Source: an uncultured Clostridia bacterium (GTDB lineage Bacteria > Bacillota > Clostridia > Christensenellales > UBA3700). From it: a stretch of 64,000 bases of DNA. The stretch is taken from the NCBI GenBank assembly GCA_947646415.1, contig CANSGN010000008.1:1-64000 (forward strand). The letters run 5' to 3'. A program made the translations under genes and the position numbers. This document shows, piece by piece, positions 17,708 through 64,000 of the stretch (the stretch's first letter is position 1; each line of letters starts with the position of its first letter). The notes beneath the pieces are model-generated. The model ran no database searches. It was not told the origin of the DNA and worked only from the letters and a program-made list of their open reading frames with translations.

Positions 17708-19438
17708 ATGGCAAAAATAATAAAAAGGGCAGGGATAGTATTTTTGGTATTAGTAATTTCCTTGCTATTAATATTAGGCTGTATGTTAGCGGTAAATACT
17801 GCAACCGAAGATAAAAATGCCGAGTTGCAAAACAATGATGGAAACGTTCAAGAAACCGCGGATAAAAGCTACACGCTAAGCGGAACTTGTTCGCAAATGG
17901 CAACAACTTGGAATACTGCTATTACATATTCCAAAAATAATAGTGCAGTTAATGTCAATGTTACTTTAGGCGGAAATTGGACAGCACAAAGCGATAGCAC
18001 ATATACAACTTCATTTGGCACAGGGGATGGATTTTCTAAGGGAAGAATACTTATACCTTCGGGAACGAAAATAACATTAGAACTAAATGGATATACCATA
18101 AATAGAAATTTAACTACAGCTATAAAGGGTGGTGGAGTTATTAGTGTGGCAGGAGAATTTGTATTAAAGGATAGTTATTATACAAAAGAGAAAGCACTAA
18201 CATTGGATAGTGTAGCAAAAATAGAAAGTACGCGAATAGGCAAAATTACAGGTGCAAATATTTCATCACACATGGAAGCAGCTTTATCTATTGATGGGAG
18301 CAATGACTGCAAAATTTATGGTGGAGTTTTTTATAATAATAAGTTAAACTATACTCCAAGTTCTTCTTATGGCTTTACTGCAAGTGCTATATATAATAAT
18401 GGTTGGGCTAAAGCATATTTTTTTGGTGGTCTGGTTGCTTTTAATAGTACTATAGTAAATGGGGCATATAAAGATAATGGGACAGCTGCTGCAGTATTGG
18501 TCGCTGATTATGCCTACTCGTACTTATATGACTTGATAATCAAAAATAATTATGGTAATATAGTTGCAGGATATACATGTGGAGATTCGCATTCCACTAA
18601 TATCGGTGCAGGATTTCAAGTTTATGATAATAAATTAATAGACAGCGAAGCTGAAAGTAATTTCAGTGATGGTTTTACCGTATTGGAGCCGCTTGATAAG
18701 GATGGCAAAATAACTCGTATAGGACTAACAAGAGCCGCTAATACAAGTATAAGTAGTAATAATTATAATACGCACAACAATGGTGTTAATCCGCTAAAGT
18801 TTTTCTTTAGTGATAATGATGATTATATTGCTACTTTACAAAACAACAAATTAATGCTATGTAGAAAAATAGAAAGTGATAAATATGACTTGATGTATTA
18901 TCAAAACGGTTATAGGAAGAATTATAAAGATAATAATATTATACATGGTAGGGATGATTATAGTTTATTGGAAAACTGTGGTATGAGTGAATATGTTTTA
19001 GGAAATATATTGCCAAATACATCAATAAATACACTTATATCAAATATTAATTTTGCAGGTAGTAAAGTTGTGATTTATAATAGTAAAGGGCAAGTGGTTT
19101 ATAACAAAGGTACTGCTACAAGCGGAGTTGATATAAACAACACTATATTAAATGCAGTCGGTACAGGTTGGAGATTGGAAACATATTCCGACAGTAATTT
19201 AAAGATAGAAACGGTTTATCTATCCGTATTAGGCGATGTGAATGGAGATGGCAGAATAACCGCAAGCGATATTTCCTATTTAAGGCAATTAGCAAGTGAT
19301 AAAACAATGTTTAATAATATTAGCGTTGCAAAAAAACTTGCATGTACAATAGATAATAGAGGCGGTTTATCCATTGTTGATGGAGAAATTTTGAGATTAT
19401 TTATAGATAAAAAAGTCGATTTGAGTAATTATTTATAA
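17708..19438 (+). CDS. Exported protein with C-terminal dockerin-like domain
   Basis: The 576-residue protein begins with a lysine-flanked hydrophobic segment (residues 9-28) that serves as signal peptide or anchor; ILGC inside it could be a weak lipobox. The body is rich in Asn, Thr, Gly and Ser with strand-turn patterns (KITLELNGYTINRN, GGVFYNN), resembling a right-handed beta helix. No catalytic residues could be recognised. The C-terminus (from about residue 509) carries a type I dockerin-like pair: GDVNGDGRITASD followed by SYLRQL, and a second, altered calcium loop, DNRGGLSIVDGEIL. Dockerins bind cohesins, but no cohesin is seen in this window. The ATG is eight bases after GGAGG. Confidence 0.75.
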   Translation: MAKIIKRAGIVFLVLVISLLLILGCMLAVNTATEDKNAELQNNDGNVQETADKSYTLSGTCSQMATTWNTAITYSKNNSAVNVNVTLGGNWTAQSDSTYTTSFGTGDGFSKGRILIPSGTKITLELNGYTINRNLTTAIKGGGVISVAGEFVLKDSYYTKEKALTLDSVAKIESTRIGKITGANISSHMEAALSIDGSNDCKIYGGVFYNNKLNYTPSSSYGFTASAIYNNGWAKAYFFGGLVAFNSTIVNGAYKDNGTAAAVLVADYAYSYLYDLIIKNNYGNIVAGYTCGDSHSTNIGAGFQVYDNKLIDSEAESNFSDGFTVLEPLDKDGKITRIGLTRAANTSISSNNYNTHNNGVNPLKFFFSDNDDYIATLQNNKLMLCRKIESDKYDLMYYQNGYRKNYKDNNIIHGRDDYSLLENCGMSEYVLGNILPNTSINTLISNINFAGSKVVIYNSKGQVVYNKGTATSGVDINNTILNAVGTGWRLETYSDSNLKIETVYLSVLGDVNGDGRITASDISYLRQLASDKTMFNNISVAKKLACTIDNRGGLSIVDGEILRLFIDKKVDLSNYL

Positions 19439-46823: not shown

Positions 46824-47678
46824 TTAAAATGGAAAAACAAAGTTTCCAGGAGTAATAAACAAATAGCTTATTAGCGATAGCAAAACAATTATAATAGGTT
46901 GGTGCAAAATATATACTGCCAAAGCTTTGTTGCCCCAAAAACTTACGGGTTTGTACCAACTGTATTTGTCTAGCATAGGAAGTACAGATTTCCGTTCCGC
47001 ATAAACAAAACTGCCTACACTTGCACCAAGAAGAACATATCCTAAATTAGGCAGTATAGGGAAATAGTCTGCCGATTGATAGCCTCCAAAATATGTTGCG
47101 ATAAACCCTAAGTCGGGATTTACGTTTTCAGGCGGATTTGCGCTATAAACTTGCGTTACAACTATAATTACTACCCCTGCAATCAAACATACCATACTTA
47201 TCAATCGGTTGTTATCCATACAAACTTTTGAGATGATGTAGTAAATCAAAATGGAAAAAGCCAACATGTGTAATACGCCGAAAGTAATGGACATATCAAA
47301 CAAGGATGTTACTAATGTTATGCCGAATGCTAAAAATAAAGCCTCGATTCCGCGTTTTAAATTGCTCCTTGATAGGTTGCAGGAAATACCGCAAAGTATG
47401 AAAAAAAGGCAAAATATAATAGGATGAAATATCTCCCTTAGCATACCGCTTTCATAATTATAAGCAAAATTTAAAATACCATTATGAATAGGATTGGCAG
47501 TAGCCCAAGCTTCCCCGAAAATTTCAGATATATTGAACATAAAATGGTCCCAAATCATAAGCAAAACGCAAATGCCGCGTATAAAATCAAGTTCCCAAAT
47601 GCGGTTTTTGCTTTGGGATAACTTGCGTTTTGATAGTGGCTTTGCGATTGTTATAGTACTATTACTTTCTTTTTCCAT
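46824..47678 (-). CDS. DUF1624 / HGSNAT-like membrane acyltransferase family protein
   Basis: The 284-residue protein has about seven to eight membrane helices and the family opening RIWELDFIRGICVLLMIWDHFMF, with the conserved His; ITFGVLHMLA and a final ALAVYILHQP are also family landmarks. The family is related to heparan-alpha-glucosaminide acetyltransferase and is thought to move acyl groups across the membrane onto sugars. The substrate is unknown. Its start overlaps the end of the preceding minus-strand gene by 17 bases, which implies coupled translation. Confidence 0.82.
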   Translation of the reverse strand: MEKESNSTITIAKPLSKRKLSQSKNRIWELDFIRGICVLLMIWDHFMFNISEIFGEAWATANPIHNGILNFAYNYESGMLREIFHPIIFCLFFILCGISCNLSRSNLKRGIEALFLAFGITLVTSLFDMSITFGVLHMLAFSILIYYIISKVCMDNNRLISMVCLIAGVVIIVVTQVYSANPPENVNPDLGFIATYFGGYQSADYFPILPNLGYVLLGASVGSFVYAERKSVLPMLDKYSWYKPVSFWGNKALAVYILHQPIIIVLLSLISYLFITPGNFVFPF

Positions 47679-48285
47679 AACGCTTGCCGTCCTTTTCGTA
47701 GTTTAATGGTTTTTCCTTTACGTCAATAAGTTTAAAATCCCCGTTCGTATATTCCTGAAATACCTTAAAATGATTGTGATATTCGTGAATTATAATGGAT
47801 GGATTGTTGTTAGAGCGGTAAACTTTTGGCGGAATAAAACCTTTTCTGCTAATATTAGGGTCATAATAAGGATGACTTCTGTGTGGCATACCGCCTTCGT
47901 ACTTTTTAAAGTATTTTACAGGCTTTTTTTCGTACATTTTTTGCCTTTTGTCCGCATCTTTTCTTTGCTGAAGTTCACGCTTTGCTTTTTCACTTTCCAT
48001 AATCTGTCTTATGGGTTTTACAATCAAATTCCTAACCGAAATTATCAAACTTCCTATCAAAGTTAATGCCAAACCGATATAAAACAATATTGTGTTTGTA
48101 TCAAGTACACTTATATTAAGCCCACCTGTAAGCATAAGTATACCGCAAACAATCATATAAATTGCAGGAATCCATAGCCCGAAATACAAAAGCATATATG
48201 CAATAATGTGCAAAAGAATTTTGGCGATTTTTATAACCGCCTTGATTATCCAAGCGAAAATTGCCGTCAATCCTAAAATGCGCAT
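47662..48285 (-). CDS. Membrane protein of unknown function
   Basis: I do not recognise a family. The protein (207 residues from the ATG behind AAAGGTATAAAC) has three or four hydrophobic segments in the first 100 residues, then a basic coiled region (KAKRELQQRKDADKRQKMYE) and a tail rich in Tyr, His, Asn and Pro ending near KDGKRYGKRK. The soluble part should be cytoplasmic given its charge. It is the first gene of a two-gene operon with the DUF1624 protein and may assist it. Confidence 0.7.
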   Translation of the reverse strand: MRILGLTAIFAWIIKAVIKIAKILLHIIAYMLLYFGLWIPAIYMIVCGILMLTGGLNISVLDTNTILFYIGLALTLIGSLIISVRNLIVKPIRQIMESEKAKRELQQRKDADKRQKMYEKKPVKYFKKYEGGMPHRSHPYYDPNISRKGFIPPKVYRSNNNPSIIIHEYHNHFKVFQEYTNGDFKLIDVKEKPLNYEKDGKRYGKRK

Positions 48286-48316
48286 GTTTATACCTTTGTA
48301 TAGCTTATTTAAGCAT

Positions 48317-48345
48317 ATTATAACACAAAAAACGCCATTTGTAAA
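48317..48345 (-). promoter_or_regulatory. Promoter of the minus-strand membrane protein operon
   Basis: The minus strand reads TTTACA, 17 bases, TATAAT, about 32 bases before the start codon. Confidence 0.7.
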
Positions 48346-48369
48346 CGATTTGATACAAAAATACAACAC

Positions 48370-48963: not shown

Positions 48964-51900
48964 ATGAGGAAGAAGAGATTTTTGTCTTGCTTGCTTGTCG
49001 TGCTATTGTTGGCAGTGTTTTCTGTCACTTTAGTTGCATGTAAGGAAAGAACTTCTCAAATAGTCACTCCGGAGGCTCCTGTAGCCGGTGAATCCGCACC
49101 GAGCGTAGGAGACTTGTTGCTTATTATGCTAAAAGGCATGGGCAAAATGGATGAGGACTTTGTGAGTATGGATTTCGAATCGGAAATCAAGACCAATGTT
49201 GGTAGTGTAGAAAATCCGATTTGGGACTATCGTAAATTTTACTTAAAGGGCAATTTCAGACCTGACTCTGGGGACGATGAGGGTGAAGTTGAACTAGGCT
49301 TGGGCGTTATTGCGACTGATGCAAACGGAAACGAAAGAGCCGACCAAAGTCAAAATTTCGAATTGTTTTTACATAACGGTAGATTCTACATGAGAGTAGG
49401 CACTACTGCTTTGTATTTGGAAGATATTGACTTTAATTGGATTATCGAACAGTTGAGGAAAATCGACGGTTTGCAAAACCTTGTAGATACTATTTTGGGC
49501 TCTATCCCGGGACTAGGACTAAAAGGTAGTGTAGACGAGTTGATTGGCATTGTTGCGATGCTTATTTTCCAAATCGACAATCAAATGACTACATACAATA
49601 CTACAACAGGCACCGGACACATTGCGTTGAAGTTCAACCCTGACCAATTAATCGCTACTATTGTTACTGCACTTGGTGGTACAAGTATTGACGGTGTGTT
49701 GGCAGGATATGGTATGGGCTTAATGATACCTGACGGCAACGGCGGTATGAAACCTTACAGCATTGACGATTTCTTGGCAACGCTTGCGTTCCCTAACATC
49801 GATGTCTATGTTGAGGCAGATATCGAAAATAAAAAGGTTGTTATGGATACCGATGTAAACGGAAACAAAGGTTTGCAATTACATGTATATGATTGGCAAA
49901 CTGAATATTTCCACATGAGTACAGGTGTTATTTACAGCACTACAGATGCTATCAAGATTATTCCTGATAACATTGCTACTTATCAACCTTTCGGTTTGTT
50001 AAAGTTCCAATTTAACACCACAATCACTGTTGATGTCAATAATGTTGATGTTGGCAAACTTATCAACTTCTTTGCGGGCAAACAATTCTTGCCTGAAAAT
50101 AGTTTGAGGTTATCTGCAAATGCAGGCTTGACAATCAAGCTTGATGCTGATATCCGCTTAAAGGAAGAGCCAAACAGTGCAAACCCTAACCAAATGGATG
50201 ACAAGAGTATTTTCTTGTTAGAGCTTTATGGCGACAATAAAGATGTTCCTATGGTAGGTATTTACTTAAAAGACAAAAAGATTTATGTAAATCTTGACGA
50301 CGCTATCAAAACTGAGAGCGGCAATATAGATATAAGACCTGGCAATATCGTTGTTGAAGGTGCGGAGGTAAGTAAATGGCTTACATCTGCTATCGGTCAG
50401 TTGACAGGTTTGGTTGAAGGACTGATGGACGATTTGTTTGCAAAAGAAGAAGAGGACGGAGCTCAAACTTTTGCAGCAGTAAACGATATTCAATTTAAAG
50501 ACGGATATAGCTTGAGCGATATCGTGCTTCCTGTTGGCCATGACGACAATGGCAAAACATATATAAGCAAAACGTTCGGTACTATATTGGATATTGTTAG
50601 ATATACAATAGGTTTTGAAGACTATATCGATTGGGATGCGAAAACAGGTAAAATCGAACTTAAAATCACAAACGAGTTCTTCCATAAATTATGCAATCAA
50701 TTTGGCATAAATGTAAACGAACTTGCAACAATGAAAGATTTTGGTTTGATTACTCTTGGTATCGACCTTGCAAAAGGCTCTTGCTATTTAGATTTGGATT
50801 TGAACAAAGCAGTGTTTGACGAATCGCTAAGCGGGGATGACCAAAGCGTTTTGCACGCAAGGGTAGAGCTTGACAATTTCCGTTACGGTTTCGGACACCG
50901 TGATGAGTTGTTAAAGAAAATCGATGCTGCAACCGATGGTAGAGCATATATAGGTAATTTAAAAGACTTTATTTATAATGCAGTTGACGACTTGGATATA
51001 GAGTTCGAGGCTAAATTGCAAATAGACAAAGGTATATACAATGCCGCTAATATTTTGGGTATTAACACAGGACTACCAAGTGTTAATATCGAGGTTGGCG
51101 ATGCGTTTATTATGGATTTGAAATTGAATATTCAAATTCAAATGGACGAGGTTACATATAAAGAAGATAATAAAGATGTAACAAAGAAAATAATTACACG
51201 TGCATATATCGGTATTACAAATGTAACAAGAAATCCAATTTTCCCTAAAGACGGAATGACTGTTCGTTTGTATTACTTGGATGACAGATACGAGCAAAAC
51301 AATGTAATGAGTGCTATGTCGGCTACAAAGGAAGATAATAGTGTTCATGGTACACTTTATGCCGATATGTCAGAGTTTGAAATGATTAAAATTGGTATTC
51401 CAAGCTTTGCTATTGGCCTTGATTTGACTGATTTGATTTTCAGTATGATAGACAACTTGGCTATCGATTTCAAGATTCCTGAGTTCTTAAATGCTAATGA
51501 AAACCAAGACGCTCAAGCATTCGGTCTTGACGACGGAAATACAAGAACAGTTACCGCAGACGATGACTCTATCATTTATGACTTGTATACAAAAGATGCA
51601 ACAAAAGTTGACAGACTTTTAAAAGTAGAGCTAACTAGTGCATTGGTAAATGAGTTGTTCAAAATGTTTGATTTAGATATTGATTTTGAACTTCCTGAGA
51701 TTAGAATAGATGCGGAAATTAATAAAATCGACGGTATCAAATTGAGCATTAAGGCATTTGATGGTGCCGGTGAAGATAAAAAGACACTTAGCCTAGACCT
51801 AGGTATTAATAAGTTTAAAATGGGTAGCCCTAATTTGGTTATCGATATTACACCACTAACCGATGGTATAAAGGAAAATCCAGATAAATACGGAGTGTTT

Positions 51901-54900
51901 ATCAACATTAGCGACTTGTCGGATACATCCAATAAAGGTATGTTGCAAGAAATTCTACACGGTGTTATTTACAGAGCTCTTGACGACGTGGATATCAAAT
52001 TTAGCCTAGATATCCATTTGGATAAAGGCACTTATGATATCAGTAATATTTTGGGTATTCAAACAGGATTGCCTAGTATTCCTATTTACTCAAGCGAAGG
52101 CTTTGATTTGAAGTTTGATATTATGATTCAACTTCAAAGTGCTATCGTACCTAAGATGGATATTTTGGGTAACGTAATCGATGGCGAATACGAGCAAATC
52201 ATTAGCCGTGCTATGATTACACTTCAAAATAAGGCACAAAATCCTCTTACTCCAAAGGGTAACGGTGTTGTTAAAATAATGTATTTTGATGACAGATACG
52301 AAGGCAACAAAAACTTAGGATTAAAACCATACAATGCTACACAAACAGGTATTGACGGCAGTGGTAATCCTGTTTACAATGTAAGCAAAACTCATGGTAC
52401 ATTGTTGTTGAATTTGTCTACATTTAATATTTTGAACTTTGTATTGCCTGATGTTGCACTTGATATGGATTTAACACAAATCGTATCGCAAGTTATCGGT
52501 AACATAAGTTTGAGTGACGTATCGTTTAATAACTACAGTGAGGCAGATGCTGCAAGTGCGGTACAAAATCTATTTGCTGCAGTGGCAGACGGAGATAATC
52601 AAGAAGAAGGTACAACCTTTGTAAAAGTTGCATTGACTACAAAACTAATCGAAGAAGTTTTGAGAATGGTTGGTGTAAACCTAGAGTTTGGTTTGCCTAA
52701 TATTGATGGTGGTATTATTGTAGATGCCGATAATGGTATATCTATTAATATCGCAAGCAAAGACGGCGAGAAGAATGTAAGTGCCGGAATAGGTATGAGC
52801 AAATTGCATTTAGGAAAGCAATTAACAGATGATGAAATTGCTCCTCCTGCGGATTTCGATATTGAAAAATTCGGTATTGCAACAGCACTTGACCTAAGTA
52901 CATTGCTAAATACAATGATTTACAGAGCGCTTGACGACGTAGATTTGTCATTTGACTTGGCGTTTGAGATTACAAAAGGCAAGTATGATGTTTCTAAAAT
53001 ATTGAGTTTATTCGGTCTTAGCCTTGGCGATGAGCCTATTAATATCGAAGTAAGCCAAGACTTTATACTTGACTTAACACTTAACATTAAAATAAGATGG
53101 AATGACTTTATTGATGCAGAGTCAAAAGTTAACAATGCAAGCGGTATAACTCAAGCAAGAATAAGCTTGTATAACAAAACACCTAATATATTGTTCTCGC
53201 ACGCATCTGAAACAGTGCCTGTATTGGACGTATACTATTATGACGACAGAGGTCCTAATAACAACACATTGCCTCCATTGGATGCTGCTAACGGCGGACA
53301 GTTTGCTTATGGTGTAAACGGTAAGGAAACTCATGGTAGCTTGTTTGTAAATGCCGACAAGTTCGAGTTTGCAAAATTGAAAGTGCCTAACATGGTTGTG
53401 GATATCGATTTGACAAGTTTGATTAAAGGTGTTATCGACAACTTAAGCACAAGCTTGGGTACAGGTACTCAATCTGCAAGCATTGATTCGGATATTTCAA
53501 GATATATGAGCAGCCTAATGGCTCAAGAATTTGGCACAGTAGCAGATGCTGCATTGCCTACCGAAGAGACAGGTAACTATTTACAAGTTCATATCACAAT
53601 GCAATTAATTACTGAATTATTGCAAAAATTAGGCGTTGTGTTTGAAGTGCCTGACTTCTTGGACAGCTTAAACGGTAACTTTACAATAAGCCAAATTAAT
53701 GGTATCAAGTTATATGCTAATATTAATAGGCCTAATGAGGAGGGCGGTGTAAATTCTATAACTTTGAATTTAGGCATCAAGCACATTAAACTTGGTCAAA
53801 CTATTGAATATATTTCTCCTCCTGCAAGCTTTAACGATTACAGAGAGTATTATGGTACAAAAGTTATTAGCGATATTAATTCTGTAATTTACAGATTATT
53901 GGATGATACCAATATTCAAATTAAATTGCAAGCGGATGTACCTCAAGGTAGATACAATCTTGCACCTATCTTGAAGATGGCCGGCGTTAAGATTGACGAA
54001 TTGTTTGTAGAGTTTACACAAGCATTCAATCTTGATTTGACATTGAATATTCAGTTGCAAATGGACAATGTGCCTAAATATGACGATAACGGAAACATTG
54101 TAGAAGGTGCCTACGAGACTATTTTGTCAAGAGCTTGTATAGAAATTATAAGCGGCTCGGAAAACTTCTTGTTCGAGCAAGGTACTGTTGCAAAACTATT
54201 GTATTTCGATTGGAGATTGGAGGCAAATAGAAACAGTTCCGCTTTGGGATTGAAGAGACCTTCTTACGACGAGACTACAGGCATAACAAACAAGACATTT
54301 GGTACATTGTTTGCAGATTTCAGCGGATTGAATATTGCAAATATCACAATACCACCTGTAACAATGGATATCGATTTAACTCAAATCATTCAATCTATAA
54401 GCTCTAGCATTGGTGGAAACATTAATTTGGGTGGCGGTGGAACTGCTGCATATAGCTTGGCTAACAATGGTATCGGTATGGTAAACGATGCTTTAAACGG
54501 ACCTGCTGCAGCTCCTGCACTTGGCAACTATATTAAAGTTGTAATAACTACCAATTTGATTAACGCAATATTGGAAATGCTAGATGTAAACTTGGGCGAG
54601 ATTACATTGCCTAACTTTACAGTAGATGCGGCAGCAGATGCTGACAAAGGTATTGCAGTGGTAATCAACTTGTTCACAAAAGATTCGGATGATGACACTG
54701 ATAGAACAATAAGTGCAACATTGGCATTGCCTATGTTACATTTGGGTGTTAAAAACGAAATCGAAATACCTAAAGACTTTACAAACAGTTACTATGCAAC
54801 AGACTTTAGTAACATTGTAAAAACATTGTTGAAATACGGCGAAATTAATGCAAAATTGAACATTAGCGCTAACTCTTCAACAATTAATGTACAAAGACTT

Positions 54901-57900
54901 TTGAACAACATTTTGGCATCTAGCGGTATGAATCTTGCTTTGCCTATCAATGTTGATTTGAATGATTTTTCAAATGAATTGGAATTAAGCTTAAAATGGA
55001 ATTTCGACTATGACGACGCAAGAAACACTAATATTGCTTTAGAGTTGAAATGCGACGACCAAATGGCAATGTCATTGTACATGACAAGAGGAAATGTTTA
55101 TGTCGACATGTCAGGTTTAGGTCTTCCTAAATTCTCGTTGATTAATTCCGGCTTGGCAGCAAAAATTACTTATCTTGTAGGTAATGCATTGGACGGATTG
55201 CTAGGTGACTTAGTAAATAGCGGTACTTCAAACCTACAAAATGCTGTTGCTACAGCAAACAATATGTCTGTAGAGCAAATGAACAGCGAGCTATTTAGAA
55301 TGGCGCGTGACGGCGAAATCGAAGGGGAAGAAGACAAACCATTTGAAATATTAGACTACGTTACACTATTGCTAAAAGGTTTGAGCATGAGTGACGGCGT
55401 GTTTAATATTGATATCTCTGCCGAGATGATGAGAACTATTTTGAAAGAGCTTGATATCAACATTGCAGAAGATATTACAGTAAAAGCAAGCTTGGATTTG
55501 AAACATGGTATAATCGAACTTTACTTGACCTTTGCCGAAATTTCAGTAGCTGCAAAATTGGAAGTAAGAAATATCGGCGGAGTTGAAGATTTAACAATCA
55601 ATGTAACCGATTCGGCTTATGTTGAACTTAATATGTCATCGAGTGCTATCTTTGTTAACTCTTTGTTGGATAATTTGGACCCAGGCATTTGGATTGATTT
55701 GATTAGTAAAAACCACTCGTTTAACGATTTCTTTAGATATACTAAGATAACAATGGAAAAAGTGCCTATCGAGGGTATGTCATTGCCATATACAACAGGT
55801 GGTTGGGCAAATGGCGGAAGTATTTTGCTTAAATTGTTACGTATGGATGGCGGTGGTTCGAACACTGCAATAAGCGGTGGCGTCCCTGCATTGTATATCA
55901 TTTTGGATATTAACAGCAATAAATTGTGGATAAGAGCTACAAGAGATTTGCTACCAATCGATATTGATTTCTTGGGTATTAGTGTTCATGCCGATACTAT
56001 GGTAAACATCGCAATCGACTTTAATATCAAAAAGATGCTTAGCGATTTGGTAGGTCCAATCATTAACGAAATTAATAAAGTAGATACAGTAGGTTTTGAA
56101 GATGCGTTGAACGGCTTATCTATTGATAGCTTGTTAAAAGGTATCAACGTTAAAATTTACGGTGTAAGAAACATTAAGATTAATGTGGAATTAAATCATA
56201 ACGTAATAAACGACTTTATACCTAAATTGGTTAACGGCTTTAACGGTATGTTCATTCAGTTGGACCCTTCACAAGGCAACTCATATACTGTAAGCGGTAT
56301 AAATTATAACAATAAACAAAATACAGACTTCCTAAATAACTTCTGGGATAACTTGATATATCCTGTTGTTGTAGTTGCTGTTAAGGATGCCGGTATGGGT
56401 GGATTGATGACAGTAGTTGATACTGCTATCAACACTAGCGGTGCAAAAGACAATGTGCTTAACTTAGTATCAAGGTTGTTACCAATGCCGGAGTTTACCG
56501 AGCTTAATGCAAACGTTTATATCGTAAATGGTAAACTTGATAACATTCAACTTGTCGGATATGATATGACAACAAGTGGTAATACACGTAATAGATTGGA
56601 GTTAAGGATATTCAACGATATGTCCTCACAAGCATTCTTCGGAAATATGGATGCGTTAGATTTGAACAACGTAGTACGTCAAGCACCTTACATTCACTTT
56701 GATGTGGCTGTTGACAGTGAAAACAACTTTATTAATAAGTTTACTGACTATGCTTATGTTCCTAACAAAACCACAATGTACTATGATACTGCAATGGAAA
56801 ACAAGCCATTTGTAGTTCAAAAGACTGAAGTAACTTGGGCTGTAACTTATTATGACGAAAACGGCTTTGATATGAACGAAAATGTACTTAACAATGCGTT
56901 TACAAAGACCGATATGAGTGCATTTAAGGCAAATGGTAGATATAAACCTGGTTATTATATTGCAACGGAAACTGCAAGTACAGTAAAAGGTACGTTTACA
57001 AACCAAGTAAGGATTGTTATAGAGGATAATACAGCGTTTATTAGAGAAAATGACACTTATGTGGAGCATATCGAAATTCGTTCGGGTCAAACACTTCCTA
57101 CATCGATAACACTTACTAACGATAGGTTGGAAAAATCTATTTATATAAGAAATGTAGAAGGTGCAATGAACAAGTTTGAGTTTAAAGACGAGAACGGTAA
57201 TAACTCTGCACCGCAAACAAGCATTGACGGTGTTACACATGAAAATGCAAAAGTTAAGATTAATTTGTCTTCAGGCAGTCCTGTTTACAAAACAACACAA
57301 GTTAAATGGCACGATGCAAAACTTGCATTGGTTGAAACAGCCCCTATCGAAATAAGCATTTTTGATTACAAAGACTTCTTTAACAATTATTACAAAGCTG
57401 AAAAAATGTTTGTAATAACCTCTGACAGAAGAAGGATTTATCAAGATGTTCAAAGCATAAATATTTCTCAAGGTTACGATGCTTTGTTTAACTTGGATAG
57501 TAACGGAAATATCGCCTCACTTGCAAATGAGAGCAAATGGATGAGTGAAACAGGATTTAAGACACAGCTTACAATAGTGCTTAAAAATGCTCATGCACAG
57601 CAAATGCCACTTACAAGAGAGGTTATAGTAAAACCTAGAATTGTAGATTTTGTAAGATTTGACAGTAAAGACACTATTGTAATGGATACTGTACAAACTC
57701 AATCTGATTTGCCAAAGAGTGTAAGAGTATACTTTAAAAACGGCGATATGGAAACTTATTCGATACCTTATGACAGATGGGATTTCTCAAATGTTGTTAA
57801 TACCGAGGCTACCGGTGCAGCTGCAAAGACAATGACATTCGGTAAAAAAGGTGTATATGACAATGTTGCATTTAGGTTTGACCAAGATTACGGCTATCCT

Positions 57901-58416
57901 GATGGCTTTGAGATGAACAAGGTAGAAGGCGTAACTATAGCAATCAACGAGGCTGTAATCCAATATGCAAAAGTTGGTCCTGATAACGGGGAGAGATATT
58001 GCGAAATTTCGTACGAAGACTTTGCAAATAAGAAATTCGACGATTTGGATTTGCGATTGATATCTTCGGACGGAAGAGTGACAGACTATGTTGACAGAAT
58101 GACATACACTATCGCTTACAAACATGTCGAAAACGGTGATTATAGGGAAAACAATGCTGAAACTAGAAGATATATTCAAAGCTTGCCATTGGAAGAAGCC
58201 ATGAAATATCAACCTATTACGGCAGTGGCTAATAACTACGAAATTATCGATAGAGGTATTACACTTGGGGATAAAGGTGGTAGAGCAAGAGTAACAGTAA
58301 GGTTGTTGTACATGCAAAAGGATGCAAATGACGAACACCCTATACTAGATAATAGTAGAGTAGTAGAGACATACTTGTATTTCCAAGTTGCGGCACCTAT
58401 TGTTAAGGTAGACTGA
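48964..58416 (+). CDS. Giant tandem-repeat surface lipoprotein
   Basis: This is a 3150-residue exported lipoprotein. The start is the ATG behind GGGAGGAAAT, giving a signal peptide that ends LVAC (Cys 26). From about residue 590 to 2050 it is built of four to five diverged repeats of about 320 residues. Landmarks recur in order: IY(R/N)A(L/V)DD-type at residues 670, 1002, 1319 and 1642 with a weaker fifth near 1954; a DLxLNIQ strand; DDR(Y/G) at 770, 1107 and 1424 (WRL at 1747); and HGTL followed by D(M/I)DLT. The strands alternate polar and hydrophobic residues. The final 550 residues look Ig-like and lack Cys-rich or sortase signals. I cannot assign a function; an elongated beta-rich rod or lipid-handling scaffold is possible. 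Confidence 0.85.
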   Translation: MRKKRFLSCLLVVLLLAVFSVTLVACKERTSQIVTPEAPVAGESAPSVGDLLLIMLKGMGKMDEDFVSMDFESEIKTNVGSVENPIWDYRKFYLKGNFRPDSGDDEGEVELGLGVIATDANGNERADQSQNFELFLHNGRFYMRVGTTALYLEDIDFNWIIEQLRKIDGLQNLVDTILGSIPGLGLKGSVDELIGIVAMLIFQIDNQMTTYNTTTGTGHIALKFNPDQLIATIVTALGGTSIDGVLAGYGMGLMIPDGNGGMKPYSIDDFLATLAFPNIDVYVEADIENKKVVMDTDVNGNKGLQLHVYDWQTEYFHMSTGVIYSTTDAIKIIPDNIATYQPFGLLKFQFNTTITVDVNNVDVGKLINFFAGKQFLPENSLRLSANAGLTIKLDADIRLKEEPNSANPNQMDDKSIFLLELYGDNKDVPMVGIYLKDKKIYVNLDDAIKTESGNIDIRPGNIVVEGAEVSKWLTSAIGQLTGLVEGLMDDLFAKEEEDGAQTFAAVNDIQFKDGYSLSDIVLPVGHDDNGKTYISKTFGTILDIVRYTIGFEDYIDWDAKTGKIELKITNEFFHKLCNQFGINVNELATMKDFGLITLGIDLAKGSCYLDLDLNKAVFDESLSGDDQSVLHARVELDNFRYGFGHRDELLKKIDAATDGRAYIGNLKDFIYNAVDDLDIEFEAKLQIDKGIYNAANILGINTGLPSVNIEVGDAFIMDLKLNIQIQMDEVTYKEDNKDVTKKIITRAYIGITNVTRNPIFPKDGMTVRLYYLDDRYEQNNVMSAMSATKEDNSVHGTLYADMSEFEMIKIGIPSFAIGLDLTDLIFSMIDNLAIDFKIPEFLNANENQDAQAFGLDDGNTRTVTADDDSIIYDLYTKDATKVDRLLKVELTSALVNELFKMFDLDIDFELPEIRIDAEINKIDGIKLSIKAFDGAGEDKKTLSLDLGINKFKMGSPNLVIDITPLTDGIKENPDKYGVFINISDLSDTSNKGMLQEILHGVIYRALDDVDIKFSLDIHLDKGTYDISNILGIQTGLPSIPIYSSEGFDLKFDIMIQLQSAIVPKMDILGNVIDGEYEQIISRAMITLQNKAQNPLTPKGNGVVKIMYFDDRYEGNKNLGLKPYNATQTGIDGSGNPVYNVSKTHGTLLLNLSTFNILNFVLPDVALDMDLTQIVSQVIGNISLSDVSFNNYSEADAASAVQNLFAAVADGDNQEEGTTFVKVALTTKLIEEVLRMVGVNLEFGLPNIDGGIIVDADNGISINIASKDGEKNVSAGIGMSKLHLGKQLTDDEIAPPADFDIEKFGIATALDLSTLLNTMIYRALDDVDLSFDLAFEITKGKYDVSKILSLFGLSLGDEPINIEVSQDFILDLTLNIKIRWNDFIDAESKVNNASGITQARISLYNKTPNILFSHASETVPVLDVYYYDDRGPNNNTLPPLDAANGGQFAYGVNGKETHGSLFVNADKFEFAKLKVPNMVVDIDLTSLIKGVIDNLSTSLGTGTQSASIDSDISRYMSSLMAQEFGTVADAALPTEETGNYLQVHITMQLITELLQKLGVVFEVPDFLDSLNGNFTISQINGIKLYANINRPNEEGGVNSITLNLGIKHIKLGQTIEYISPPASFNDYREYYGTKVISDINSVIYRLLDDTNIQIKLQADVPQGRYNLAPILKMAGVKIDELFVEFTQAFNLDLTLNIQLQMDNVPKYDDNGNIVEGAYETILSRACIEIISGSENFLFEQGTVAKLLYFDWRLEANRNSSALGLKRPSYDETTGITNKTFGTLFADFSGLNIANITIPPVTMDIDLTQIIQSISSSIGGNINLGGGGTAAYSLANNGIGMVNDALNGPAAAPALGNYIKVVITTNLINAILEMLDVNLGEITLPNFTVDAAADADKGIAVVINLFTKDSDDDTDRTISATLALPMLHLGVKNEIEIPKDFTNSYYATDFSNIVKTLLKYGEINAKLNISANSSTINVQRLLNNILASSGMNLALPINVDLNDFSNELELSLKWNFDYDDARNTNIALELKCDDQMAMSLYMTRGNVYVDMSGLGLPKFSLINSGLAAKITYLVGNALDGLLGDLVNSGTSNLQNAVATANNMSVEQMNSELFRMARDGEIEGEEDKPFEILDYVTLLLKGLSMSDGVFNIDISAEMMRTILKELDINIAEDITVKASLDLKHGIIELYLTFAEISVAAKLEVRNIGGVEDLTINVTDSAYVELNMSSSAIFVNSLLDNLDPGIWIDLISKNHSFNDFFRYTKITMEKVPIEGMSLPYTTGGWANGGSILLKLLRMDGGGSNTAISGGVPALYIILDINSNKLWIRATRDLLPIDIDFLGISVHADTMVNIAIDFNIKKMLSDLVGPIINEINKVDTVGFEDALNGLSIDSLLKGINVKIYGVRNIKINVELNHNVINDFIPKLVNGFNGMFIQLDPSQGNSYTVSGINYNNKQNTDFLNNFWDNLIYPVVVVAVKDAGMGGLMTVVDTAINTSGAKDNVLNLVSRLLPMPEFTELNANVYIVNGKLDNIQLVGYDMTTSGNTRNRLELRIFNDMSSQAFFGNMDALDLNNVVRQAPYIHFDVAVDSENNFINKFTDYAYVPNKTTMYYDTAMENKPFVVQKTEVTWAVTYYDENGFDMNENVLNNAFTKTDMSAFKANGRYKPGYYIATETASTVKGTFTNQVRIVIEDNTAFIRENDTYVEHIEIRSGQTLPTSITLTNDRLEKSIYIRNVEGAMNKFEFKDENGNNSAPQTSIDGVTHENAKVKINLSSGSPVYKTTQVKWHDAKLALVETAPIEISIFDYKDFFNNYYKAEKMFVITSDRRRIYQDVQSINISQGYDALFNLDSNGNIASLANESKWMSETGFKTQLTIVLKNAHAQQMPLTREVIVKPRIVDFVRFDSKDTIVMDTVQTQSDLPKSVRVYFKNGDMETYSIPYDRWDFSNVVNTEATGAAAKTMTFGKKGVYDNVAFRFDQDYGYPDGFEMNKVEGVTIAINEAVIQYAKVGPDNGERYCEISYEDFANKKFDDLDLRLISSDGRVTDYVDRMTYTIAYKHVENGDYRENNAETRRYIQSLPLEEAMKYQPITAVANNYEIIDRGITLGDKGGRARVTVRLLYMQKDANDEHPILDNSRVVETYLYFQVAAPIVKVD

Positions 58417-58430
58417 TTTTAGGAGGAATT

Positions 58431-61400
58431 ATGAGAGAATCAGTGAAAAATAAAAGAAAATTAATAGTGACAGCTGTTGCGGTAATTATTGCAATGCTAC
58501 TGTCTGTTACCACAGGGCTATTGATATATAGCCCTAAGGGTAACTCCACCCCTGAAGGTACAACAGACGGTTTGATGGGTAATGTTGCCGATAGTGTTAA
58601 CTTAGATAACAGCACAACAGGAAAAACTAATCCTGACGGGACTTCGGGAGACCGTATCACTACACAAGCTGAATTAAAAAGTGCTATACAAAACAACAGA
58701 AGTTGCTATTTGGCAAATGACGTTGAGTTGGATTGGGGAAGCGGTAAACCTAACGGCAATAGCTATACCGGTACTTTTAATGGTAACGGAAAGGTTGTCA
58801 GATTAAGAACTAGTTCCGACGGATGGCCTATGTTATATGAGTGGAAAGGTTCGGGAGATAACTATTACGGTGCGGGATTTGTTGGTGTATTAGCTCCCGG
58901 CGGTGTTATTAAAAATGTAACATTCGAATATAAAAGTTTGACTTGGAAGTTTGCTTCACCGACTGCATGGCATAATGGTAAGAAAAATACTATCGCAACA
59001 TTCGGTCTTGTTTGCGGAGAGAATAGAGGTACTATCCAAAATGTAAGATTGGATATAGATTCTGCCAAAGTAGAAATGCACGCCGATACTTATGCCGATG
59101 AAGAATATGCCAATAAATTATTATTGGGTGGTATTTGCGGGGCTCAAAGCGGAACACTAAACAATGCTTATGTTAACATAACAGGAAATACCGAGTTGAA
59201 AGTAAATACAAAAAACTGGAGACGTGTTGGTGGTGGATTTAGAGCTTTACAAATGGGTATTACCGGCGGTGTATATGGTGCTTATACAAGTGCTACTGCT
59301 GCTTTAAATACTTCCAACCTTATGATGAAAGGCGGCTCTGGCGTAATTTTAACAGCAGATAGTGAGCCAAGCGGTACAGGTAGTGATCAAACCGGTGTAT
59401 TGAACTTTTGCGGAGCAGTTGCCGGATATAATATACAAGGTGTAAAAGGCGTTGTATGGGATTATCAAGGTAGCTTCTGGGTAAGGACTAAGTGGGCAAA
59501 TGGTGCACAATATGCACCTGATGATTTTGAAAGTTCTAAAGTTGCCGCTATGACGGGTATACCTAACGGATACTATTCTCCTACAGCAACAATCGTTTGT
59601 GCTAACGGCTCGGAATGGCTTTCAAACAGCAATGAAAGAGCTAACTATCTACTTAGCGGTTATGGTAAAAACGATATGCCTACTAATAGCTCTGTGAATT
59701 GGGGTATGGATACTAGTGATGCAAAAAGAGGTAAAATAGACAGGTCTTTTGGTAAAGCTAAAATCGATATGGCTCAATATGACGCAAAATTTGGTAGTAT
59801 CGAGATGAAATTTACAAATGACCCCGGTTATTTGAATATCAAAAGAACTATGACGGGTTATGGTACTTATGACTGTTTCTTCCGTGTAGGTACTTGTGCA
59901 ACCGATGCTATAAGCAGTAATCCTGCAGTTTATTACGGTTCGGATAATAATAAAGCTTTTGATGTGAATTTCAATATGGCCACCGACAATATGGCTGCGG
60001 ATGTTCAACGATTTGAGATTGTTACAGGTAAACGCTTAAGCGGGTCGACGTACGGCATTCAACTTTTGGGTAATCAGTCATATACGGGCAATGATTATTT
60101 GACTTTGTTTAAAAACAATGCAATCAGTGCTGCCGCAAGAGAAAAGATTAACGAAGTTAAAGTAGATACAAACGTAGTTTTTGATACAAGTTTAATCAAA
60201 ATACTTGAAAATGACAAGGTTATAAGCGGTTGGAACTTGATTTATCCAAAAAGAGCTGCTAAAATAACCATTCAAAGTACTGTGGACCCTAATTACGCTT
60301 ATGTGGACCACAAAAACAGATTTTGTTTTGTTCCTGCAGCTGAAATGCCTGCTTTGCAAATGTTACCGGCAAGAAACACGGTTACAGTTCCTAGCGGATG
60401 GGGTAAAACTCAAACAATAAACGTATTGCTACGTGATGACCAAAACAATACTAGCAACAGGATTCAAAATAATGCCGTAGATAGGGTAGAATACAGAGTA
60501 GTAGGAACTACTGCATTTAAGAGCCAAGCCGTAACTCACACTGCAGCAAATGGTTTCAACTTTACAATTAGTGATTCCACTCCGTTGGCGGGTGCTCAAT
60601 ACGAGATTATCGGTTATAAAAACGATAACCCTGTAGTATTCAGTCAGTTTGACGATGCAGGTGCAGTTGTGCCATTAAATTTGGGTAAAAATGTTTTTGT
60701 AGACAATATTGCACCTACTTTGGATGATAGTCAATTTGATTATCTACACGAAACAAATGTATGGTTTAATGCTGACAAAACAGTTGAGTTTGAAGTTGCA
60801 GATGCAAACTCCGGTGTTAAGACGGTAGATGTATTTAAAACAGCATTGGATAATCAAGGTAATCCTATAATCGGAAGTTATGCGGAACGTATATACAGTA
60901 CTTTACAAAATAATAAGGTTACTTTTACGGCAGATGGTTATAACAAATATCATATAAAGATTTATGACCAAGCTGATAATACAAAAGATTACGAGTTTAA
61001 TGCTCATATCGATAAGACAAATCCGGATATTACGGCAGATATAGAGTACTATATCAAAAAGATAACCGGTGGCACGGATCCATACGACCCTTCTAAAGGC
61101 TCTACGAAATCGGTATTTGCAACTATACGTACAAACTTTGGCCCTGCAGGCGGTAAAGTTTATTTCGAAGCTGCAAATCAACCTGATAACGAGTTAAACA
61201 CTAAAGGTACAGTAGTACAAAGCGTTAACAATGTGTTTGATGCGGAAATTAAGACTACTATGGACGGCGGTACTGCGTATAACTTTACTTTGATAAGTAA
61301 CGCTGTTGCTACCAAAGGCGATGAGAGCAGTAGCTTAAAAAAGACTATTAATGGAACTGTTGTAATCATTGTTAAGCAAGAGACTATCGAAGTTTTGATA

Positions 61401-64000
61401 GCAGATATCAACATTACTTCCGATAACGGAGCTTTGACAGAGATTTATAGTAAGAGTAACGGTTTTGATACTTCTAGAATTTCCGTAAGATTTTCGGATG
61501 AGACAAGAAAACAAACGGCAAAAGAAAAACTAGAGGGCATCGACGCAATTTATGATATCGAACAATTTAATACATATATCGAAGTTGTATCGGCAGGTTT
61601 CTATTCTGACAAATCGGGTAATAATCCTGTAACCGATGCAAACGAGGGCAGAGATGCTAAGTATTACTTGCTTGTTCATATAAGGGTAAAATCTATTTAC
61701 GATTTTGCTATAACAAACCAACAATCACAAAATAACTTGTATGTGTTTGAGGCAAATGCAGTTGATGATGAAGGTAATGCTATTGAATACCAAATCAACA
61801 ATACTTTGCAAACAGTTGATACTGTAGGTATTCAAAAGAAAGTCATTAATGATATGACTGTAGATTATATCGAAAAGACTTATTGGGAGCCAAACCCTGA
61901 TTTCAGTGTTACTTTGGGTGCTAACGAGTTGGTTTCGGGCGATACTATTGACGATGTTAAGATTACTTATCATACTAATGCAACAAAAGAGTCAAATGCA
62001 GGAAGATACGATGTAACTGCAACTATCGACGAAGATTGCATAAACTACAAATTGGCAAGCAATGCAAATACAAGGGGCGATTTTAGAATCAAGAGAGCTG
62101 TAATTTCCAACATTTATATCGACGGAGAGTTGAATTCTATCAGCTGTTTTGAAACCCCTAATGTAAAAGCTTATTTCTATGACGCTACAGGTATTAAAAC
62201 CGAGGCTCACAGAATTTACTTGGACATTATTTATAAAAACCAAGACAAGGAAGAATTTGAATTTATCCCGGGTAAGAGAGCTCCTATCGGTAAATACTTC
62301 TATGTTATCTTGATTGACGATGCAAACTTGATTAACTATGTTAACCTTAGCGACCCTAATATGCTTATCGGTCACTTTAGCGTTGTAGGAGATAACGTTG
62401 AAGAGGGAAGAAACTTCTTTATCAGAGACTTGGACCCTACAACTAGCGTTATTGAAGTTGAATTTGTCAACGGCTTTATCGATTTTAGGTCTTTGATTGA
62501 TTTTGAAACTAACGCTTTAAGAGATAAAATGATGATTTTGTACGGCGCTAACGAAGTTGAAAACACTATCATCAATGGAATTGGTTACTACATTGTTACT
62601 TTGAAAATCAAACGTGGCGACGATAGATATGCTCCTTTCACTAAAGAGTATGAGATAAAGGTTGTTCCTGCAACTATTATTGCTACTGATGACGATATAA
62701 AAGCTCCTAACACGCCTGTTGAAGAAGGTCAATTATCTATTGACGGCGTATACTTCGATAATAAAGTTGTTAACTTAACTACCGACAGTATAAGTAAATC
62801 TTTGCGTGACAAGCTTGAAGCTTTGCTTACCGAGGAGGAAATTGCTAACGGCGGTGTTACAAAATATTATGATTTCGATTTTACTTATAAGCTAAATAAC
62901 AGAACTGTAAGTGCAAGCAATGTTATCAATGTTGGTTACTACAATGTTTCACTTGCGATTTCCGGCGATAAAATTAATACGATTTATTTGTCGACAGGCT
63001 TTAATATCGTAACACGTGATTTGGATGTTATATTTGATACTGACAAATATGCAAGTGACGAGAACATTAAGGTTACTACAAATTCAAATGGTGTTATTAC
63101 TGTTTCAAAAGTATTTAATGGTTTGAATAACAAAATCAATTTGTCTTTGGAAAAGGAATTTGAGGCTACACTTAGACGTTTGCTTGGTGTTAATGCAAGC
63201 ACTCCTGAAAGTGAATTACCTTATCAATTCTCTGACAACGACAAAGCTGAGGCAGGTAATTATACTATCGCTTTGAACTTGACAGGTCTTGCTATCGGCG
63301 GTAGTCCTAATGTAAGATTGAGAAATGCTACTATTATTATTTCTATTTCTCAAAGAACTGTTGATTTGGAAGTAAGCGATATTAACGAAGTGTTTAAGGG
63401 CGGTACTTACTTGCTACTAACCGAAAACGACATTCAAGCTTTGATTGACAACGGTATTGCAGACCCTTATATGGACCCTGATACCGGTATTGCTCAAAAT
63501 ATCAACTCTTTATATTTCGGTATTGACGAGTACAAAGATTTGGGTGTTGAAGTTATAAGACAAAAACCATCTAACCCTGATGACATTGTGACAGGCGGCA
63601 AATTGGGATTGTATTTCCCTAACTCGGGTACTTACAATATCCCTATTAGAATGAGAGTTCCTAACCCTAACTTCAAAATAGGTAATGGCTCTATCCAGGC
63701 TACTATTGCAAAAGCACCTGTAAATTCAATCACTCTTCAAGCAGAGTATACTTTAGATGGTAAGTTGCATAAAGAAGATGTTTCCGAGGACGGCAAGTTC
63801 ACTATGGAATACAACGGCTACAATGTTGAGTTTAAGATTGGCGAACAAGGTTTGGCAGATTTGAATACTCTTGGTGTTCAAGAAAACGAAATCGAGTTTA
63901 CAAACAACATTCTTAGAGATGCAGGCTCTTACGAGGTAAGCGTTGCAGTTGATAATATGAATGTTTCAAGTGATGTTTATACTATTCAAGTGGAAATCAC
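58431..64000 (+). CDS. Very large exported protein with GLUG-like and MBG/Ig-like segments (incomplete at right edge)
   Basis: The frame opens at the ATG behind AGGAGGAATT, 14 bases after the giant lipoprotein, and stays open for at least 1856 codons to the window end. A signal/anchor segment spans about residues 10-32. GLUG-like repeats follow: GLVCGENRGTIQNV near 189, GGICGAQSGTLNNAYV near 230 and GAVAGYNIQGVKGV near 327. They suggest a beta-helical adhesin region. An Ig-like segment near 780 (ADANSGVKTVDVF) is followed by several beta-sandwich domains; the one near 1140-1225 (SNAGRYDVTATIDED, then NYKL) resembles MBG domains. It is co-transcribed with the lipoprotein and is probably a surface adhesin or S-layer-associated partner. 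The C-terminus is not seen. Confidence 0.85.
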   Translation, partial: MRESVKNKRKLIVTAVAVIIAMLLSVTTGLLIYSPKGNSTPEGTTDGLMGNVADSVNLDNSTTGKTNPDGTSGDRITTQAELKSAIQNNRSCYLANDVELDWGSGKPNGNSYTGTFNGNGKVVRLRTSSDGWPMLYEWKGSGDNYYGAGFVGVLAPGGVIKNVTFEYKSLTWKFASPTAWHNGKKNTIATFGLVCGENRGTIQNVRLDIDSAKVEMHADTYADEEYANKLLLGGICGAQSGTLNNAYVNITGNTELKVNTKNWRRVGGGFRALQMGITGGVYGAYTSATAALNTSNLMMKGGSGVILTADSEPSGTGSDQTGVLNFCGAVAGYNIQGVKGVVWDYQGSFWVRTKWANGAQYAPDDFESSKVAAMTGIPNGYYSPTATIVCANGSEWLSNSNERANYLLSGYGKNDMPTNSSVNWGMDTSDAKRGKIDRSFGKAKIDMAQYDAKFGSIEMKFTNDPGYLNIKRTMTGYGTYDCFFRVGTCATDAISSNPAVYYGSDNNKAFDVNFNMATDNMAADVQRFEIVTGKRLSGSTYGIQLLGNQSYTGNDYLTLFKNNAISAAAREKINEVKVDTNVVFDTSLIKILENDKVISGWNLIYPKRAAKITIQSTVDPNYAYVDHKNRFCFVPAAEMPALQMLPARNTVTVPSGWGKTQTINVLLRDDQNNTSNRIQNNAVDRVEYRVVGTTAFKSQAVTHTAANGFNFTISDSTPLAGAQYEIIGYKNDNPVVFSQFDDAGAVVPLNLGKNVFVDNIAPTLDDSQFDYLHETNVWFNADKTVEFEVADANSGVKTVDVFKTALDNQGNPIIGSYAERIYSTLQNNKVTFTADGYNKYHIKIYDQADNTKDYEFNAHIDKTNPDITADIEYYIKKITGGTDPYDPSKGSTKSVFATIRTNFGPAGGKVYFEAANQPDNELNTKGTVVQSVNNVFDAEIKTTMDGGTAYNFTLISNAVATKGDESSSLKKTINGTVVIIVKQETIEVLIADINITSDNGALTEIYSKSNGFDTSRISVRFSDETRKQTAKEKLEGIDAIYDIEQFNTYIEVVSAGFYSDKSGNNPVTDANEGRDAKYYLLVHIRVKSIYDFAITNQQSQNNLYVFEANAVDDEGNAIEYQINNTLQTVDTVGIQKKVINDMTVDYIEKTYWEPNPDFSVTLGANELVSGDTIDDVKITYHTNATKESNAGRYDVTATIDEDCINYKLASNANTRGDFRIKRAVISNIYIDGELNSISCFETPNVKAYFYDATGIKTEAHRIYLDIIYKNQDKEEFEFIPGKRAPIGKYFYVILIDDANLINYVNLSDPNMLIGHFSVVGDNVEEGRNFFIRDLDPTTSVIEVEFVNGFIDFRSLIDFETNALRDKMMILYGANEVENTIINGIGYYIVTLKIKRGDDRYAPFTKEYEIKVVPATIIATDDDIKAPNTPVEEGQLSIDGVYFDNKVVNLTTDSISKSLRDKLEALLTEEEIANGGVTKYYDFDFTYKLNNRTVSASNVINVGYYNVSLAISGDKINTIYLSTGFNIVTRDLDVIFDTDKYASDENIKVTTNSNGVITVSKVFNGLNNKINLSLEKEFEATLRRLLGVNASTPESELPYQFSDNDKAEAGNYTIALNLTGLAIGGSPNVRLRNATIIISISQRTVDLEVSDINEVFKGGTYLLLTENDIQALIDNGIADPYMDPDTGIAQNINSLYFGIDEYKDLGVEVIRQKPSNPDDIVTGGKLGLYFPNSGTYNIPIRMRVPNPNFKIGNGSIQATIAKAPVNSITLQAEYTLDGKLHKEDVSEDGKFTMEYNGYNVEFKIGEQGLADLNTLGVQENEIEFTNNILRDAGSYEVSVAVDNMNVSSDVYTIQVEI

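Follow-up and report, generated by a model that had tools for sequence, protein, structure and literature searches.

The window (by which we mean the whole 64,000-nucleotide stretch of contig DNA analyzed here) carries a giant gene on the + strand at 48964..58416, with an ATG start, a GGAGG motif upstream, and one open frame of 3,150 codons. Its product begins with a signal peptide (residues 1-25, 48964..49038) ending in the lipobox LVA-C, which makes Cys26 (49039..49041) the predicted site of lipidation. The lipobox cysteine is present in all 27 of the homologs with a complete N-terminus (28 homologs in all), and the signal peptide, the LVAC lipobox, and this invariant cysteine together mark the window protein as a bacterial lipoprotein whose lipidation is predicted. 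The original prediction described a 3,150-residue lipoprotein from the letters of this DNA; it was correct in the frame, its length, and its start, and the LVAC lipobox with Cys26 bears out the class to which it assigned the protein.

The first region of the mature protein, U0 (residues 30-330, 49051..49953), is conserved throughout the homolog alignment and by inspection has a helix/strand pattern similar to that of the repeat unit; it gives no match with the unit profile. It is followed by U1 (residues 337-663, 49972..50952), a remote copy of the repeat that scores 112 bits with an iterative hidden Markov model (HMM) and 84 bits with the unit profile, and then by the four repeats R1 (residues 668-999, 50965..51960), R2 (residues 1000-1316, 51961..52911), R3 (residues 1317-1639, 52912..53880), and R4 (residues 1640-1960, 53881..54843). 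Unit B (residues 1961-2260, 54844..55743; 173 bits with the unit profile) is the most conserved part of the family. Region C (residues 2261-2570, 55744..56673) is conserved in the homolog alignment, looks strand-rich by inspection, and gives no match with the unit profile. The C-terminal region (residues 2571-3150, 56674..58413) completes the protein, and all of these features lie on the + strand.

The four tandem repeats, of 317-332 residues each, span residues 668-1960 (starts at 668, 1000, 1317, and 1640), and their pairwise protein identity is 25-40%. An HMM built from any three of them recovers the missing repeat at 151-203 bits, against a best score of about 7 bits among 200 shuffled proteins, which confirms the four clear repeats of about 320 residues that had been read from the sequence. 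The weaker fifth repeat suspected at the same time corresponds to unit B and proves to be a genuine remote copy: it scores 9 bits with the four-repeat profile (residues 2018-2183) and 106 bits once the profile has been iterated over homologs (residues 2016-2198). The iterated homolog profile also revealed a sixth copy, at residues 421-662, before the array. With our final profile, built from 136 units, the window protein shows U1, R1-R4, and B, and shuffled versions of all of the proteins give zero matches. The landmarks that the original prediction had used to define the repeats are all present, some of them 2-3 residues away from the positions it gave (DDR, for example, had been placed at 770, 1107, and 1424). 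They comprise an IYNAVDD-type motif at 670 and IYRxLDD at 1002, 1319, and 1642; DDR at 773, 1109, and 1427, with DWR at 1749; HGTL or HGSL at 795, 1144, and 1457, with FGTL near 1779; and DxDLT at 1167, 1480, and 1802.

Polar and hydrophobic residues do alternate over long stretches, as was likewise claimed at the outset, and far more so than in shuffled sequences. Lag-1 autocorrelation of hydropathy over residues 30-2570 is -0.18, versus -0.001 ± 0.02 in shuffles, and strictly alternating runs of at least 8 residues number 29 where 9.4 are expected, the longest reaching 18. The last 580 residues show far less of this pattern (autocorrelation -0.075) and look different from the rest of the protein.

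Similarity searches in the host's GTDB family (f1) yielded weak matches inside frames of 2,400-3,400 residues, and full-length comparison of those frames resolved them into one family; homologous lipoproteins of 1,630-3,420 aa occur across f1. A scan of genome contigs with the window sequence alone gave no match. A profile of the A+B modules (R1-R4 being A modules) matches 63 of the 297 genomes sampled in the Christensenellales, in families f1, f3, f13, f16, and f24, nearly always inside frames of more than 1,600 residues, the longest of about 13,588. The matches are strong in f1 and much weaker in f3, f13, f16, and f24 (E about 1e-17 to 1e-5). Five complete frames outside the main f1 set, of 7,108, 9,174, 9,404, 13,588, and 2,731 aa, each begin with a lipoprotein-like N-terminus and match the unit at several places. 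In a class-level sample of 245 genomes, mostly from other orders, there was no match beyond the host genome, and the relatives found here come from metagenome assemblies only. In the libraries and literature searched, we came across no description of the module, the lipoprotein family, the pairing of giant genes described below, or the spread through the Christensenellales.

Several of these relatives are extreme in size. The 13,588-residue protein (L090-L092) is a single frame on the minus strand of contig G277:C2 (joined 10848-51614) with weak matches to the repeat unit, and further giants are the proteins of 9,404 aa (L079-L081) and 9,174 aa (L082-L084). The 7,108-aa lipoprotein (L077-L078, contig G002:C1) contains at least 12 unit cores and is followed, 85 nt on, by a frame of over 3,400 aa. 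In genus g4, three lipoproteins of 3,381-3,404 aa (L063, L064, and L065) carry the A+B pair three times in tandem.

Module number thus varies across the family. Most f1 members consist of U1, one A module, and B, whereas the window protein has four A modules; counted as detected units, there are three in most relatives, six in the window protein, eight in the g4 paralogs, and twelve or more in the 7,108-aa homolog. A maximum-likelihood tree places R1-R4 in one clade (100/97), adjacent to a clade of all other A modules, and within it pairs R1 with R3 (99/88) and R2 with R4 (98/70), on branches that the program marks as long. With that long-branch caveat, the topology fits a scenario in which a single module duplicated and the resulting two-module block then duplicated in turn. 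The expansion is old, since DNA identity between the repeats is 45-51% and a search of the window for a tandem array at the DNA level found none left. The expansion of genus g4 into three A+B blocks is independent of that in the window protein.

The C-terminal region is of a different kind. Big_4, an Ig-like domain, was found at the C-terminus of four of seven homologs (best 2.9e-7); it scores 24.5 bits in homolog L068, above the cut-off, and 10.6 bits in the window protein itself, below it. We therefore assign residues 2571-3150 to the Ig-like Big_4 type by homology. The earlier statement that no known adhesin or enzyme domain was recognized holds for the repeats and needs correcting for these last ~580 residues, where a known surface-protein domain occurs.

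The repeats themselves resist assignment. The window protein has no match to them in Pfam, NCBIfam, or PDB sequences, and searches of family members and units against the family libraries at relaxed thresholds gave only scattered matches, each in one member. AlphaFold2 modeled R4 alone, from 33 aligned units, with a mean pLDDT of 66, reaching 80-90 over most of residues 30-190. The model opens with a helix of 23 residues and continues with long antiparallel strands, the longest of 19 residues, and another helix; after an insert of ~45 residues modeled at low confidence come a third helix and three further strands. Its helices include ones of 23 and 13 residues. Modeled together, R4 and B came out poorly (pLDDT 52, with unit B below 70), and there was no confident packing between modules, so that an extended shape for the chain is an assumption. 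Foldseek searches of the PDB and of viral models returned no match at an E value of 0.001 or better. The original prediction had called the fold of the repeats unknown, and the empty library and Foldseek searches agree. An Ig-like fold in every repeat, the outcome that it had named as its own refutation, was not found: given the missing Pfam match, the helices in the model, and the lack of a significant Foldseek match, the repeats are predicted not to be Ig-like.

A predicted long helix with long antiparallel strands, together with amphipathic alternation over 2,500 residues, is also what might be expected if each ~320-residue unit were an open half-barrel (LolA/RseB/LppX-like, or a sheet around a helix) in a chain of lipid-holding modules. 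On this reading, which we consider unlikely, the chain would transport or store lipids, glycolipids, or other hydrophobic ligands in the space from the membrane to the wall surface. In its favor, a Foldseek search with the two-unit model placed LolA-fold proteins (3bk5, RseB, and MucB) at ranks 1, 2, 3, 11, and 45; among the matches listed for the R4 model, microsomal triglyceride transfer protein has the highest TM-score, and a DUF1329 protein is present as well. None of these is significant: ranks 1-3 have E values of 0.04-0.07, no E value is below 0.04, the TM-score with the single-repeat model is at most 0.20, and the LolA-fold proteins vanish from the top 50 matches once the better R4 model is the query. 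Profile comparison with hhalign, run against DUF6612, LolA, LolB, and RseB with TamB, YtfQ, and HemA as controls, had low power, its positive control, DUF6612 against LolA, giving only P = 0.23; the lowest P-values are those of DUF6612 (0.11) and LolB (0.14), at a probability below 1%, and LolA gives 0.76 and RseB 0.74. DUF6612 was not found in the host genome, nor LolA_like in 40 relatives. Any resemblance to carriers of the LolA/LolB/RseB/DUF6612 type would thus lie in a possibly shared order of helices and strands, supported by weak, non-significant structural and profile ranks. Unlike those carriers, the window protein has a unit of 320 residues with a disordered insert, forms tandem arrays, and has no outer membrane to serve. 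Its Ig-like C-terminus, in place of a second membrane contact, also speaks against the reading.

Omp85 was not found in the host genome, which is 96.5% complete, although each of seven control genomes yields one; the host is therefore probably a monoderm, with nothing to suggest an outer membrane that a bridge could reach, and we reject a diderm envelope on the same ground. Taken with the presence of spoIVA in the window, the absence of Omp85 points to a probable monoderm from a lineage that forms spores.

A monoderm cell is a poor setting for the more speculative part of the original prediction, a bridge-like lipid carrier spanning the wall. Such a conduit, of the AsmA/TamB/VPS13 type, would join all of the modules into one continuous groove, and the window protein does share with AsmA/TamB and the bridge-like lipid transfer proteins its length, its beta-rich and amphipathic strands, and its membrane attachment by a lipid anchor at one end. 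Nevertheless, helices of 13-23 residues interrupt every unit, there is no acceptor membrane in a genome that lacks Omp85, and no AsmA, TamB, TULIP, or repeating-beta-groove structure appears among the Foldseek matches listed for either model. Pfam gives no AsmA/TamB match in the window protein, and the hhalign comparison with Escherichia coli TamB is negative (P = 0.61, at low power). The lipid-bridge idea thus gained no significant support, and we regard a conduit as very improbable, far more so than a chain of separate lipid-holding modules.

The giant gene does not stand alone. A partner gene begins 14 nt downstream on the + strand (58431..63998 within the window, continuing to contig position 65213) and encodes 2,260 aa in full, with an N-terminal signal/anchor, an Ig-like/MBG stalk, and a transmembrane helix at the C-terminus that leads into a short, acidic cytoplasmic tail. 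Pfam identifies an MBG domain in it, MBG_2 being the sole match, and a search for an LPxTG motif found none. Ahead of the Ig/MBG part, GxxG-type repeats occupy an N-terminal stretch resembling a GLUG-like beta-helix. A second long gene on the same strand follows the lipoprotein gene in all 28 f1 loci, separated from it by 23 nt or less or overlapping it slightly, and the partner proteins have only weak similarity to one another. No giant partner gene adjoins the homolog in the sampled f3, f13, and f24 loci, and the pairing is therefore not universal.

An OmpR-type response regulator lies near 15 of the 28 loci, often with a histidine kinase. Together with the single transmembrane helix and short cytoplasmic tail of the partner, this raises the prospect that lipoprotein and partner form one complex, a receptor or wall sensor read by the neighboring two-component system. 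We find that doubtful: the window locus and 12 others have no such regulator within the stretch examined, and regulated expression is the simpler meaning of a regulator next to a surface operon.

The remainder of the window offers several further observations. At 46824-48369, ~0.6 kb from the giant gene, lies a divergent upstream pair encoding an HGSNAT-type membrane acyltransferase and a weakly M50B-like membrane protein; inspection of protein starts suggests a similar acyltransferase-like frame near homologs L083/L084, L088, and L089. The segment 36047-46610 encodes SpoIVA and, next in order, three enzymes: a glycogen branching enzyme, one of the starch synthase type, and glycogen phosphorylase. 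A 576-aa protein (17708-19438) has a dockerin match below threshold at residues 509-530 (19.1 bits; cut-off, 22.9), and a 735-aa protein (13904-16111) has no Pfam match.

As a class of architecture, the giant modular surface protein is already known (PMC8201768, PMC12863079). Periscope proteins resemble the window system in using tandem folded modules to set length and probably in export to the surface, and MBG (PF18676), the domain family carried by the partner gene, is listed among periscope-protein repeats (PMC8201768). The mark used for them is a repeat identity of at least 80%, which allows rapid change in copy number (PMC8201768); the repeats of the window protein, at 25-40% (protein) and 45-51% (DNA), fall well short, and the window protein further differs in its lipid anchor and in a new module with long helices. 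The Giant1-5 proteins of Apilactobacillus kunkeei are extracellular proteins of 3,000-8,000 aa encoded by neighboring genes in a small Gram-positive genome, and Giant1-4 are predicted to have N-terminal beta-solenoids (PMC12863079). On that account the two systems share neighboring giant genes, while the window protein has a lipobox and helix-plus-sheet modules instead.

The explanation that we favor, at roughly even odds, is that the window protein is a membrane-anchored stalk that lifts an Ig-like tip through the wall of a monoderm cell. It rests on the lipobox in 27 of 27 homologs, the varying number of modules, the single clade of R1-R4, the Big_4 C-terminus of homologs, the MBG domain of the partner gene, the second long gene in 28 of 28 loci, and the lack of Omp85. 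The protein would be the lipid-anchored half of a surface system of two proteins in the Christensenellales, in which six or more homologous modules, each a helix plus an antiparallel sheet, would form an elongated body bearing the Ig-like domains of the C-terminus across the wall and past it. Exposed at the surface, those domains might bind glycans of a host, other cells, or the giant Ig/MBG membrane protein encoded alongside. The number of modules would determine reach: most relatives have one A module, which has become fourfold here, other branches have expanded separately, and related proteins attain about 13,600 residues. The two-component system near many homologs would regulate expression. 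Against the stalk count the lack of a recognized ligand-binding domain in the protein and a repeat whose long helices and amphipathic sheets set it apart from the all-beta domains that adhesin stalks usually have, as do the lack of confident packing between modules and the f3, f13, and f24 loci with no adjacent giant partner.

Were the lipid-holding chain correct instead, the family would constitute a monoderm lipid-handling system with tandem lipid-binding modules on one anchored chain of up to thousands of residues, a prospect that we rate slightly lower still. Such modules would pass hydrophobic molecules across the thick wall or keep them at its surface, their number tuned by duplication. 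Whichever of these holds, the module belongs to no family library that we searched, has no detectable structural relative, and recurs in proteins of 1,600-13,600 residues. It provides a definite target for a single structure determination, and that structure would decide whether these giant proteins are Gram-positive stalks or lipid-handling chains.
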